Position numbers and translations under genes: made by a program. Positions 17,781 through 21,316 of a DNA stretch of 64,000 nt are shown in pieces. Origin of the DNA: Ginsengibacter hankyongi (GTDB lineage Bacteria > Bacteroidota > Bacteroidia > Chitinophagales > Chitinophagaceae); NCBI RefSeq assembly GCF_008710285.1, contig NZ_VYQF01000010.1:62001-126000 (forward strand). The letters are read 5' to 3'. Within the stretch, counting starts at the first letter, position 1; every line of letters begins with the position of its first letter. The notes below the pieces were generated by a model. That model was given only the letters and a program-made list of their open reading frames with translations. It searched no databases and was not told the origin of the DNA.

Positions 17781-18012
17781 ACAAGCAGTATTGTGGTTTA
17801 TGTTTGAGTAATGAGGTTCGCTTTGGAATATTTAATTCAGTAAACAGTAGCGGTTTTTTATTAAAATTAATTTTTTTTCGGTTAGTCAGATAATATCAAT
17901 GTTAAAAGTAAACTTACTATACGCAATAATAGCTATTTTACTATTTCCATTCATAGATGATGTACGAAGATTACAGTAAATACAAAAGACCGAAAATTAA
18001 GCAGAAGCGCTC

Positions 18013-18043
18013 TTGTTTCACATACGGTCGCTAAATACTTTTG
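18013..18043 (+). promoter_or_regulatory. Bacteroidota promoter of RNA A
   Basis: TTG at 18013-18015 and TACTTTTG (TAnnTTTG) at 18036-18043 are separated by exactly 20 bases, the Bacteroidota sigma-ABfr/RpoD consensus. Start of transcription is expected near 18050. Confidence 0.75.
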
Positions 18044-18049
18044 TAACAG

Positions 18050-18312
18050 GAGTTGATTGATGTCGATTAGCGAAATGAAAAATACCCAGAACCAATGAAA
18101 AGCACAGCCCTGGTTTTGAGGGAAACCACGCTTAATCTTGTGCCAAGTCATTTTCATATTTTTAAAACGACTGATTCTATATAAATAATTGTTCCTATGA
18201 AAAACAGCCAATAACCGGCTTATCTCTATCCTAAAAAACCATCAAAACCAGAATTAAATTATTGAATGGGGATGTTAAAAAACTTCTGCAATTACCGGCA
18301 GAAGTTTTTTTT
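18050..18312 (+). ncRNA. Structured small RNA A, diverged member of a four-copy family
   Basis: This is an intergenic transcript unit of about 262 nt with its own promoter and terminator. It shares with RNAs B and C the 5' segment AGTTGATTGATGTC. In the 3' half it shares the block that begins with a five-codon ORF (ATG at 18197 to TAA at 18214), runs through the small hairpin AGCC...GGCT and the segment ATCCTAAAAAACC, and ends in a terminator hairpin of the same shape. The middle is unlike B and C and lacks the long-range 3' pairing arm, but contains its own CCCAGAACC/GGTTTTGAGGG pairing. No coding potential beyond tiny ORFs is seen. The function is unknown. Family membership is inferred from my manual alignment. 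Confidence 0.6.
18277..18312 (+). terminator. Terminator of RNA A
   Basis: The stem ACTTCTGC/GCAGAAGT has an 8-base loop (18290-18297) and is followed by eight T. Confidence 0.85.
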
Positions 18313-18465
18313 ATCTATTAGGTTTTGATCGACAATTTCTATATTCTTTATGTAAAAGTTTACCCGTTTATACTGCACCTAACGGGTATTCTTACTCGCT
18401 TGTTTATCGTTAATCTACTATAACTTCAGTAAAATTAATATGGTCAAAATAAGGCAATATCACTA

Positions 18466-18496
18466 TTGCACACTGCATCGTACACCTATAACTTTG
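18466..18496 (+). promoter_or_regulatory. Bacteroidota promoter of RNA B
   Basis: TTG at 18466-18468 is followed by exactly 20 bases and then TAACTTTG at 18489-18496. The start point is expected near 18503. Confidence 0.8.
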
Positions 18497-18502
18497 TTCC
18501 AG

Positions 18503-18774
18503 AAGTTGATTGATGTCCAACAAGCATTAATCTGAAATCCAAAAATCCATTGAACAAACTTTTACCAAATCCGATAAAAAACCAAACAAAAATCCGGTAT
18601 CAGTCAACTTCTTGTTTTAAAATCCAATACTGTAATTAACGAATTGTCCCAATGAAAACCAGCCCGTAAAAAGGCTATCCCATTTATCCTGAAAAACCGT
18701 AATACCCAGGAATAACTTATTCCAAAGAAGTTTAACTTCAAAAGCTTCTGCACTTACCGGCAGAAGCTTTTTTT
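18503..18774 (+). ncRNA. Structured small RNA B, four-copy family
   Basis: This is about 272 nt and lies 160 bases before an OmpA lipoprotein gene on the same strand but ends in its own terminator. The 5' segment 18501-18517 pairs with 18596-18612 (17 pairs including three G-U). The same segment (GATTGATG at 18508-18515) can instead pair with CATTAATC at 18525-18532. The A-rich loop between holds repeated AATCC (18536, 18544, 18568, 18591, with a fifth at 18621). Then come a five-codon ORF (18652-18669), a short AGCC/GGCT hairpin, a GGAATAACTTATTCC palindrome and the terminator. By eye about four of five positions match RNA C. I know no named family with these features. Confidence 0.75.
18740..18774 (+). 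terminator. Terminator of RNA B
   Basis: The stem AAAAGCTTCTGC/GCAGAAGCTTTT has loop ACTTACCG and is followed by a run of seven T. Confidence 0.88.
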
Positions 18775-18970
18775 ATGTCCTATTACTGGGTAATTTTTAT
18801 TTTTTCAAAAAATGAAAATTATTTAAATGCTCAGCGGGTATTAAAATAACCAATGACAGCAAATTTATCCACAGCGGTTGCTGCATTGACATTTTTTACA
18901 GCCGTTTTAATACAAAAAATATTCCGGCACGTTTTTCCTAATAGATACCATATACCATTAAAAATTAATT

Positions 18971-19780
18971 ATGAAAAAAACTTTAATATTTATATCCGTT
19001 GTTATTTTATTTAGCAGTTGCGTTGCTAAAAGATATTTAAAACAATCGCAAATGGAAACTGCAACCCTTCGCGAGGATAGCTCGAGGCTGGCTGACCAAG
19101 TTACTTCATTAAATGAAAAAATTGCTTCATTACAGGAAAACATTAAAGATTTAACCGCAAAAATTGATGCGTTGAATAACCAAAACAGTCAGTTGGGGCA
19201 ACAAACAACTGAACAACAAAACCAATTAACCAAAAGCAAGGAAACTTTACAGCAACAAAAGGAAAGATTAGAACATTTACAGGCATTATTAGAACAACAA
19301 AAGAAACAATCGGAAGAATTAAAAAATAAGATGACCGAAGCGTTAAAGGGATTTAATTCTAATGATCTGTCAGTGTATCAAAAAAACGGTAAGGTATATG
19401 TTCGTCTTTCTGAAAATTTACTGTTTCCTTCAGGAAGCGCTGTTGTAAATCCTAAGGGAATTGATGCATTATCTAAACTTGCAGCCGTACTTAATCTCAA
19501 TAACGATGTTTCAGTAAATATTGAAGGGCATACGGATAGTATTCCGATTCGCGGAAGGTTTAAAGATAATTGGGATCTTAGCACTGCAAGAGCTAATGCA
19601 ATTGTAAGAATATTGACCAATAATTATAAAGTGGATCCTGCAAGAGTAATAGCGTCGGGGCATAGTTATTATGAACCTATTGAAAGCAACGAAACACCTG
19701 AAGGACGCGCCAAAAACAGGAGAACTGAAATAATTCTCTCGCCCAAATTAGATGAAATGTATCATCTACTCGGAATGTAA
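18971..19780 (+). CDS. OmpA-family lipoprotein with coiled coil
   Basis: This is a 269-residue outer-membrane lipoprotein. The signal sequence ends in the lipobox LFSSC (Cys at about 16). A long Gln/Glu/Lys-rich coiled coil (about 30-115) leads to a C-terminal OmpA/MotB peptidoglycan-binding domain (about 135-262) with LLFPSGSAVVNPKG, EGHTDSIPIRG and NRRTEIILSPK. It should tether the outer membrane to peptidoglycan. It sits between RNAs B and C on the same strand. Because both RNAs have terminators and promoters, they appear to be separate transcripts, though readthrough from RNA B into this gene would be possible. Confidence 0.9.
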   Translation: MKKTLIFISVVILFSSCVAKRYLKQSQMETATLREDSSRLADQVTSLNEKIASLQENIKDLTAKIDALNNQNSQLGQQTTEQQNQLTKSKETLQQQKERLEHLQALLEQQKKQSEELKNKMTEALKGFNSNDLSVYQKNGKVYVRLSENLLFPSGSAVVNPKGIDALSKLAAVLNLNNDVSVNIEGHTDSIPIRGRFKDNWDLSTARANAIVRILTNNYKVDPARVIASGHSYYEPIESNETPEGRAKNRRTEIILSPKLDEMYHLLGM

Positions 19781-19944
19781 ACTGTTACATCTGGAAAGAA
19801 AACCTGCGTTAACGTTTACGTGAGTTTTTAATTTAATAAGCTCAAGTTTTTTTTAGTAAAATAGTAACATTACGTATATGCCTATTCGTTGATTTACTAA
19901 TAATGTGGTAAATTCAATATGCCAAAAATTACGCAGTAATGCTA

Positions 19945-19975
19945 TTGTAAAGTGTACAGCGTGAACTTATCTTTG
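19945..19975 (+). promoter_or_regulatory. Bacteroidota promoter of RNA C
   Basis: TTG at 19945-19947 is followed by exactly 20 bases and then TATCTTTG at 19968-19975. The start point is expected near 19982. Confidence 0.8.
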
Positions 19976-19981
19976 TTACAA

Positions 19982-20253
19982 AAGTTGATTGATGTTCAAC
20001 AAACATTAATCAGAAATCCAAAAATCCATTTGAAAGAACTTTACCAAATCCGATAAAAAACCAAATAACAATCCGATATCAGTCAACTTCTGTTTTAAAA
20101 TTCAATACCTGTAAATGCCAAATTATCCAAATGAAAACCAGCCCGTAAAAAGGCAATTTGATTTATCCTGAAAGACCACGATACCCCAGGAATAAATTAT
20201 TTTCATGAAGTTAGTCTTCAGAAACTTCCGCACTAATCAGCGGAAGTTTTTTT
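19982..20253 (+). ncRNA. Structured small RNA C, four-copy family
   Basis: This is about 272 nt, the closest relative of RNA B. The long helix is 19982-19996 with 20075-20089. Compared with B, two pairs near the loop side change but still pair (U-G to U-A, C-G to U-G), which supports the helix. The alternative local hairpin GATTGATG (19987-19994) with CATTAATC (20004-20011) is also kept. The five-codon ORF is at 20131-20148, again followed by the AGCCCGTAAAAAGGC hairpin. It ends in its own terminator 127 bases before the 3' end of the minus-strand cold-shock gene. Function is unknown. Confidence 0.75.
20222..20253 (+). terminator. Terminator of RNA C
   Basis: The stem AAACTTCCGC/GCGGAAGTTT has an 8-base loop and is followed by a run of seven T. 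One stem pair is C-G here and U-A in RNA B, a compensatory change. Confidence 0.88.
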
Positions 20254-20380
20254 GTTTGAGACGATATATGACCTGGCGAAGATTATTCTTCGGGACTTAA
20301 CCAGCCTACCATAAAAAACCTTGAGTAATGAATAACCAGGAGAAATTTATACGAGGGTTCGGTTCGTAGATTAAAATTAT

Positions 20381-20836
20381 TTAGCTTTCTAATCTTACAT
20401 TTACAGCGCTTGGGCCTTTTGGTCCCATTTCAATTTCAAATGTTACTTTGCTATTTTCTTTAATTTGGTTAATTAACCCGTTAGCATGCACAAAAATGCT
20501 TTCCTGTGTTACCTGGTCTTTAATAAAACCATATCCTTTTGATTCATTAAAAAATGTAACTTTTCCTCTTCTTATCAGATCTGCCGGATCGGGTGCCACA
20601 TGTTTGGGAACACCAATTTGAATATCTTCTAATTTTATCTTTCTCATTTTACCAGGATCTGGGGGAGTAGAAGAAAGATTTCCATTTTCGTCTATATAAG
20701 CAAGCATATCGTCAAGAGTTTTACCCTCCTTGGCATTATCTTTCCTTTCCTGCTTTCTCTCCTGTTTATCCTGCCTGCTCTTTTGCTTTTTCTTTTCTCT
20801 TTCTTTTTTGTTCCATGTTTCCTGCGATTTACTCAT
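20381..20836 (-). CDS. Cold-shock domain protein with basic N-terminal extension
   Basis: This is a 151-residue RNA/DNA-binding protein. The first ~40 residues are almost entirely Lys/Arg/Glu/Gln (KKEREKKKQKSRQDKQERK), a probable RNA-binding extension or coiled coil. The C-terminal ~65 residues form a cold-shock domain with the RNP1-like motif KGYGFI and the RNP2-like motif SIFVHA. It is expected to act as an RNA chaperone. It is divergent from the RRM gene and downstream of the RNA family cluster. It differs from classical CspA (about 70 aa) by the extension, which is common in Bacteroidota. Confidence 0.88.
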   Translation of the reverse strand: MSKSQETWNKKEREKKKQKSRQDKQERKQERKDNAKEGKTLDDMLAYIDENGNLSSTPPDPGKMRKIKLEDIQIGVPKHVAPDPADLIRRGKVTFFNESKGYGFIKDQVTQESIFVHANGLINQIKENSKVTFEIEMGPKGPSAVNVRLES

Positions 20837-21046: not shown

Positions 21047-21316
21047 ATGAAACTATTTGTAGCTGGTTTGCCTTATGATCTCGATGATGCTGAGTTGGAG
21101 GAGATTTTTGAAAAATTCGGCAAGGTTGCTACCGCCCGGGTCGCTATGGATAGGGAAACGGGGAAGAGTAAAGGATTTGGATTTGTAGAAATGCCTAATG
21201 ACACGGACGCAAAAAATGCTATTGAAAATTTAAAGGATATTTCGCTCGGTAAAAAGCCACTTATTGTAAAACAAGCTGAAGAAAAGCCACCGTCCAATTC
21301 CGGAAGAAGATGGTAA
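21047..21316 (+). CDS. RRM-domain RNA-binding protein
   Basis: This is an 89-residue single RNA-recognition-motif protein. RNP2 is LFVAGL (residues 3-8) and RNP1 is KGFGFVEM (about 44-51), with the aromatic residues that stack on RNA bases present. The short Pro/Ser/Arg tail (PPSNSGRRW) is typical of Bacteroidota RRM proteins. In Bacteroides such proteins (RbpB and relatives) bind small RNAs and mRNAs, in a phylum that largely lacks Hfq. Its location 0.8 kb after three paralogous small RNAs makes it a natural candidate partner, which is inference only. Confidence 0.9.
   Translation: MKLFVAGLPYDLDDAELEEIFEKFGKVATARVAMDRETGKSKGFGFVEMPNDTDAKNAIENLKDISLGKKPLIVKQAEEKPPSNSGRRW

Follow-up and report, generated by a model that had tools for sequence, protein, structure and literature searches.

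What is known of RNA-based regulation in Bacteroidota comes mostly from gut Bacteroides, from which Hfq is, to our knowledge, absent. By way of life, the nearest known system to the RNAs described here is that of FopS/GibS and the protein RbpB. FopS comprises 14 members in B. thetaiotaomicron, is bound by the RRM_1 protein RbpB and represses the translation of SusC-like transporters, RRM_1 proteins being RNA regulators in Bacteroides, and a FopS model has been deposited in Rfam (PMC11697453). The likeness extends to the phylum, multicopy paralogs, Bacteroidota-type promoters, terminators, and genomes with RRM_1 proteins. In contrast, FopS is reported to have a single-stranded 5′ stretch with the seed R1, followed by a terminator (PMC11697453), whereas the 5′ end here is predicted to be paired and an AUCC array comes after it, a comparison made by description only. 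The hosts of FopS and of the present family also belong to different orders of Bacteroidota. A further likeness is to the CsrB/CsrC/RsmY/RsmZ RNAs, which carry many copies of one short motif per RNA in variable number and occur in redundant copies. These RNAs expose GGA in hairpin loops, whereas the motif here is AUCC, mostly unpaired and arranged in direct pairs, and the family gave no Rfam match. Finally, 6S RNA shares a long-range helix and a large internal loop but differs from this family, which is multicopy, has a motif array and long variants, and likewise gave no Rfam match.

The window, a stretch of 64,000 nt from Ginsengibacter hankyongi (NZ_VYQF01000010.1, positions 62,001 to 126,000; genome GCF_008710285.1, 5.5 Mb in 33 contigs), holds three intergenic units on the + strand, A, B, and C (Table 1). 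A first-pass annotation had presented them as a family of structured RNAs with a common 5′ segment, and its account of their sequence largely stands. The AGTTGATTGATGT core lies at 18051, 18504, and 19983 (+), three exact occurrences in the window compared to 0.06 expected at up to one mismatch. B and C, said to agree in about four of five bases, are 80% identical with ~90 nt of upstream sequence included, and the reported ATGAAAAMC block with its hairpin is present in the units as a ATGAAAAMCAGCC block and a GCC/GGC hairpin. The shared block reaches further upstream than described and includes the promoter region, as A, B, and C are alignable from ~100 nt upstream through the terminator. Unit A does belong to the family, scoring 26.9 bits (E 0.0022) with covariance model R1, which was built from 10 copies of the host genome; it is, however, far more diverged than the annotation had it, since promoter, core, GCC/GGC block, and terminator are kept while the AUCC array and the long-range helix (P2) are gone. 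The fourth copy placed at 50 kb has to be withdrawn, as the best match there (15.8 bits, E 0.55; R1, filters off) is among background, and the 8 further copies of the host genome lie elsewhere.

Table 1. Features of the RNA units and their surroundings; positions refer to the window.
Feature	Position	Strand	Remarks
Promoter of A	18009..18043	+	GCTCTTG (−33 region), 20 nt, then TACTTTTG (−7 box 18036-18043)
RNA unit A	18050..18314	+	Divergent paralog that retains the 5′ core and terminator; single ATCC, no long-range helix
Terminator of A	18277..18310	+	Terminator-like site scan
Upstream block and −7 box of B	18400..18496	+	Conserved; −7 box TAACTTTG 18489-18496
RNA unit B	18501..18776	+	7 ATCC
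P2 5′ strand of B	18501..18517	+	AGAAGTTGATTGATGTC; 3′ part doubles as P1 5′ strand
ATCC cluster of B	18537..18686	+	7 motifs
P2 3′ strand of B	18596..18612	+	GGTATCAGTCAACTTCT, T-rich run after
Terminator of B	18740..18771	+	Terminator-like site scan
Upstream block and promoter of C	19880..19975	+	Conserved; GCTATTG 19941-19947, TATCTTTG 19968-19975
RNA unit C	19980..20255	+	6 ATCC
P2 5′ strand of C	19980..19996	+	Predicted helix
ATCC cluster of C	20016..20165	+	6 motifs
P2 3′ strand of C	20075..20091	+	Predicted helix; T-rich run after
Terminator of C	20220..20251	+	Terminator-like site scan
RRM_1 protein gene	21047..21316	+	0.8 kb behind C; candidate partner by position and exclusion only

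The terminator hairpins of equal loop size were likewise recovered. Between 17800 and 20400, six terminator-like sites compare to 1.4 expected, and the three best-paired ones coincide exactly with the 3′ ends of the three units, all with 8-nt loops. Their stems show the paired changes that had been noted, with AACTTC/GAAGTT becoming AGCTTC/GAAGCT and CTTCTGC/GCAGAAG becoming CTTCCGC/GCGGAAG. Compared to shuffled sequences, the units fold more stably, with z of −3.3 and −3.5 (B and C) and −2.3 (A), and we think that the terminator accounts for much of the advantage of B and C. As had been stated, no protein of normal size is encoded. Open reading frames of 15-55 codons occur in the copies, some with a TTG start whose position is shared by four copies (position 4 for C, L004, L008, and L009; position 8 in L006, L007, L008, and L010), but none is common to all 11 copies of the host genome, and on this ground a peptide function was rejected. 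No tRNA or tmRNA was found in the window. A transcript would be expected to begin near CAGAAGUUGAUU and to stop at the distal terminator.

A few bases before each unit lies a sequence that, by the Bacteroidota promoter consensus, we take to be a −7 box. Across the family, a GCTCTTG-like element is present in 109 of 172 upstream regions, and 103 of these 109 elements end exactly 28 nt upstream of where TTTG ends. Around and upstream of this element lie an inverted repeat, GAGCA..TGCTC, and a stretch of approximately TTACGA...GTAAATAC. In the host genome, the pattern GCTNTTG-N19-21-TANNTTTG has 12 matches, seven of which are family members (A and C among them, B not), compared to three for the reversed control. 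This promoter pattern suggests that a dedicated regulator may act on the promoters of these RNAs.

The host genome contains 11 copies, as found with C and an alignment and read by eye. Besides the three in the window, contig 1 has a row of three close to its end, contig 23 has two, and contigs 12, 4, and 32 have a single copy apiece. When 59 genomes were searched with a consensus based on sequence only, the family was found in the host, in 17 of 19 congeners, and in 3 of 16 genomes from further Chitinophagaceae genera; none of 23 genomes from other families of the order had a match. Among 244 Chitinophagaceae genomes, R1 matched 82, and covariance model R2, built from 32 diverse members, matched 89, in 39 of 101 genera; matching genomes carried 1-10 matches each. 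In three of the 89, the best E is only 0.004-0.01, and these may be chance matches. Five of 295 genomes drawn from the class matched, three from Chitinophagaceae and two from outside with E ~0.002 per genome, the latter two being marginal and near chance for 295 genomes. Absences in both the 244- and the 295-genome search are soft because stricter filters were used, and members lacking P2 are under-sampled since R1 and R2 were both constructed with this helix. Record titles among the listed matches to the family pattern (80 of at least 117) read Chitinophagaceae, Chitinophagales, Sphingobacteriales, Bacteroidetes/Bacteroidota, or “bacterium” (metagenome-assembled genomes), and the named genera among them are Ferruginibacter, Flaviaesturariibacter, Terrimonas, Cnuella, Flavisolibacter, Flavihumibacter, Pseudobacter, and Longitalea.

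The first-pass annotation had put forward no named family of this structure, and covariance models of Rfam 15 gave no match at the gathering threshold over the whole window. At lax E, 11 matches in the window region (E 0.72-5) and four in five relatives (E 0.47-0.68) are far under gathering scores. Nothing in the window region or the five relatives matched as FopS, in an Rfam release that may lack the FopS model. A literature search that fell short of most subscription journals found no published account of such an RNA. Comparative genomics speaks well for A, B, and C being paralogs of a free-standing noncoding RNA family, found only in Chitinophagaceae by these searches. The first-pass proposal of small regulatory RNAs holds for a noncoding family bounded by promoter and terminator, and the regulatory role it assigned is plausible.

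Neighboring genes were compared over 171 forward loci, which remained of 180 gathered once nine reverse readings of the near-palindromic helix were removed. A PALP+CBS (cystathionine beta-synthase-like) gene is the commonest neighbor across genomes and lies upstream in 76 of the 171 items, corresponding to 63 loci, and a gene for a periplasmic-binding protein lies downstream in 52; these counts are lower bounds because the flanks of many items are short. Among forward items from the model search alone, 13 of 20 have the cbs-like gene upstream. The median distance from the end of this gene to the RNA core is 239 nt (in a set including reverse readings). Within the host genome, neighbors are of many kinds, and none common to the copies was found among 20 proteins scanned; the copy on contig 32 has the same gene order as the cbs-like-gene sites. 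We infer that the site behind the cbs-like gene is ancestral and that the window copies are later duplicates. Tandem copies also occur in relatives, spaced ~410-450 nt (L117, L090).

The most distinctive features of the family differ from those that had been named and consist of the promoter block, the 5′/internal long-range helix, and the AUCC array. On average, 216 nt hold 6.5 ATCC (range 3-12; 166 forward sequences) but just 0.16 GGAT, and all these motif counts are inflated by common descent. The 166 sequences are a recount of an earlier set of 174, in which reverse readings were included and motif counts diluted; in that set, 6.2 ATCC were observed compared to ~2.2 in dinucleotide shuffles. 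The bulk of the motif and promoter counts comes from named loci (80 listed of at least 117), which were picked by exact helix ends and excluded from the covariation counts. In the 174-sequence set, the first base is strongly preferred, with 1085 ATCC compared to 21 CTCC, 161 TTCC, and 168 GTCC. Positions 2 and 4 are less sharp, since AACC (539) and ATCA (534, partly via the helix strands) are frequent.

Spacing of the motifs is bimodal, either 6-8 nt, as in ATCCAATATCC, or ~19-32 nt. With array ends set by a gap rule, the median end over 170 loci is at 183 nt, and ATCC density is back to background by ~320 nt. The eight longest arrays extend to 385-550 nt with 10-30 (A/G)UCC, often with GAAAAACC between them, and some continue past the 3′ hairpin; up to this hairpin, L169 has 27 (A/G)UCC, 15 of them ATCC, and L133 has 22. 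In 864 kb of the host genome, three places have six or more ATCC within 150 nt, namely B, C, and a site on contig 1. The same rule applied to eleven other tetramers gave between 0 and 21 clusters, so that the place of the clusters, not their number, is telling. A high strand-specific density of one short motif is found in the family and is lacking in unit A.

We tentatively favor the reading that these RNAs are multivalent ligands which titrate or assemble an AUCC-reading RNA-binding protein, and give it a little less than an even chance. A less probable alternative, though one to be taken seriously, is that they are multicopy trans-acting base-pairing sRNAs like FopS, which would repress mRNAs through a shared seed, AUCC being incidental or serving a chaperone. 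A precedent exists within Bacteroidota in the multicopy FopS, bound by an RRM_1 protein (PMC11697453), and the varied gene neighbors of the copies in the host genome agree with action in trans. However, the longest conserved segments pair inside the RNA itself, and the top conserved unpaired feature is a repeated tetramer; around 489 start codons in 864 kb of the host genome, its complement GGAT shows no enrichment (observed/expected 0.88-1.12), leaving pairing of AUCC to GGAU near start codons unsupported. Around the same start codons, ATCC is not enriched either (observed/expected 0.45-1.11). AUCC as a mimic of a general 5′-UTR signal is accordingly unsupported. A pool of competing mRNA sites, such as would be expected for a regulator like CsrA, is not visible at this level either, which weighs against the favored reading.

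The pairing within the RNA starts at its 5′ end. The initial nucleotides AGAAGUUGAUUGAUGU can pair locally, forming helix P1, or with AUCAGUCAACUUCU ~80 nt further on, forming P2, and both helices use one 5′ strand. P2 starts at or beside the predicted 5′ end, and in the members displayed a T-rich sequence comes after it. In an alignment of 32 rows (4 copies of the host genome and 28 from the model search), from which all covariation counts derive, 89% of P2 cells are paired, and 13 of the 17 P2 pairs are formed by 31 or all 32 members, though models that include P2 favor this helix among the members they gather. RNAalifold chooses P2 unprompted, and its energy is lower than that of P1 in 32 of 32 members (mean −20.1 compared to −14.9 kcal/mol). 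Covariation in P2 is not above shuffles in the 32 members, the helix being too invariant for such a test; complementarity and conservation are what argue for P2 as a predicted structure. This near-invariant 5′-closing helix and the strand-specific AUCC array had both been overlooked in the first-pass annotation.

For P1, 90% of cells are paired and 13 are changed on both sides, and 0 of 500 shuffles reach either value. The numbers of double-change pairs and of pair types, reached by 220 and 52 of 500 shuffles, are not clearly exceptional. Six or more of these 13 double changes lie within the host's genus, and the statistics ignore relatedness. Of the helix covariation that had been claimed, the local hairpin P1 is partly supported, while covariation is modest overall and P2 does not exceed shuffles.

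With P1 and P2 on one 5′ strand, a folding switch is conceivable, in which this strand would pair first in P1 and then in P2, and P2 with the U-rich run would act as a long-loop terminator or pause, giving forms of ~130 nt and full length. The P1 pairing and double changes beyond all 500 shuffles, the lower energy of P2 in every member, and the T-rich sequence behind it speak for such a switch. Nevertheless, we regard it as improbable, since the P1 double-change pairs and pair types do not clearly exceed shuffles, the double changes come in good part from a single genus, L056 has no P1, and P2 covaries no better than shuffles. Moreover, the ATCC array extends past P2, so that much transcription presumably runs through this helix.

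Base composition would allow another reading, in which C-rich, G-poor repeats attract Rho in the manner of a rut site. C exceeds G ~1.9-fold in the array, and pyrimidine-C dinucleotides are many. Rho contacts on RNA are regularly spaced, unlike the motif spacings of 6-8 and 19-32 nt, and Rho loading would explain neither the strong preference for A before UCC nor the RNAs' own promoters and 3′ hairpins, which makes this reading very doubtful. Copies that are both tandem and dispersed, in one congener partly at contig ends, might suggest a repeat or mobile element acting as DNA rather than RNA, but this reading can be practically dismissed in view of the strand-specific motifs, the promoter and terminator at fixed places, the site behind a cbs-like gene common to 63 loci, and searches that, at the sensitivity used, came back empty, both for C against plasmid and phage records and for the family pattern against viral contigs.

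In the favored reading of the RNAs as multivalent ligands, transcription would be driven by the shared promoter of Bacteroidota type, to which a conserved upstream block belongs. In B, C, and other well-matched members, though not in A, 13-17 base pairs would close the 5′ end as a helix. Closure would leave long, G-poor, mostly unpaired stretches of AUCC repeats, many of them arranged as doublets, on which an AUCC-reading protein could be titrated or assembled, its capacity being set by copy number and motif number. Unit A, in which array and helix are lost while promoter and terminator are kept, is not explained by titration. CsrA was found in none of 24 genomes including the host (control positive in 3 of 14 known genomes), nor was Hfq (control positive in 5 of 14). 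The family would therefore be CsrB-like in logic, not in kinship. An Hfq-dependent sRNA was rejected on the same search, and a CsrA-sequestering RNA was rejected because CsrA was not found in the 24 genomes and the enriched motif is ATCC instead of GGA in loops, with GGAT at 0.16 per 216 nt and a G content of 0.10-0.16 in the 11 copies of the host genome.

In its widest form, the proposal would be an independent CsrB-like titration system in Chitinophagaceae devoid of CsrA and Hfq, in which promoter-controlled RNAs (with at most ~27 (A/G)UCC sites, in a relative, and 11 copies here) adjust how much of an RRM-type global regulator is free, via a new motif; this we consider unlikely as a whole. 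An AUCC bait would offer a direct handle on the RNA-binding protein behind post-transcriptional control in this branch of Bacteroidota, and the family would test whether RNA sponges arise repeatedly around different proteins.

As partner we would prefer, with low confidence, an RRM_1 protein. The placement of an RRM_1 gene close to C (Table 1) may be a coincidence. Among Chitinophagaceae genomes, 88 of the 89 with the RNA and 135 of the 155 without it encode an RRM_1 protein (Fisher p 0.0008, phylogeny and genome size uncontrolled), a weak association; the sole RNA-positive genome lacking RRM_1 has a marginal match (E 0.0097). In the 24-genome sample, RRM_1 occurs in 13 of 13 RNA-positive genomes compared to 9 of 11 others.

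Upstream of the family copies, a GAGCA..TGCTC inverted repeat is combined with a GTAAATAC-like block, and this arrangement is kept across genera. Together the two elements probably form an operator for a regulator.

Downstream of the 5' domain, the relatives at loci L155, L157, and L072 carry repeated modules of the form ~AATATCC..GG.TTATGCCGTAAAAAGCGATGATGGCC. A shortened version of these modules, GCCCGTAAAAAGGC, may be present in units B and C. The long relatives L133, L104, L169, and L116 end at their 3' side in a similar hairpin that lacks the T run and carries CCTCCTGC...GCAGGAGG or GCAGGGGG; anti-SD-like and SD-like letters occur within this hairpin.

In a congener, family copies are located at contig ends (contigs C1 and C5 of genome G001; locus L129), and tandem arrays of the family are therefore probably under-counted in draft genomes. 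The adjacent genes downstream of unit C encode two kinds of RNA-binding protein.

Features neighboring the family copies
Feature	Location	Strand	Context
GAGCA..TGCTC inverted repeat and GTAAATAC-like block	e.g. window 19880-19967		upstream of copies
Cold-shock-domain protein gene	window 20381-20836	-	just behind unit C
RRM_1 protein gene	window 21047-21316	+	just behind unit C
Tex-like gene with S1 domain	L188:10763-13036		after the three-copy cluster, contig 1 of the window's genome
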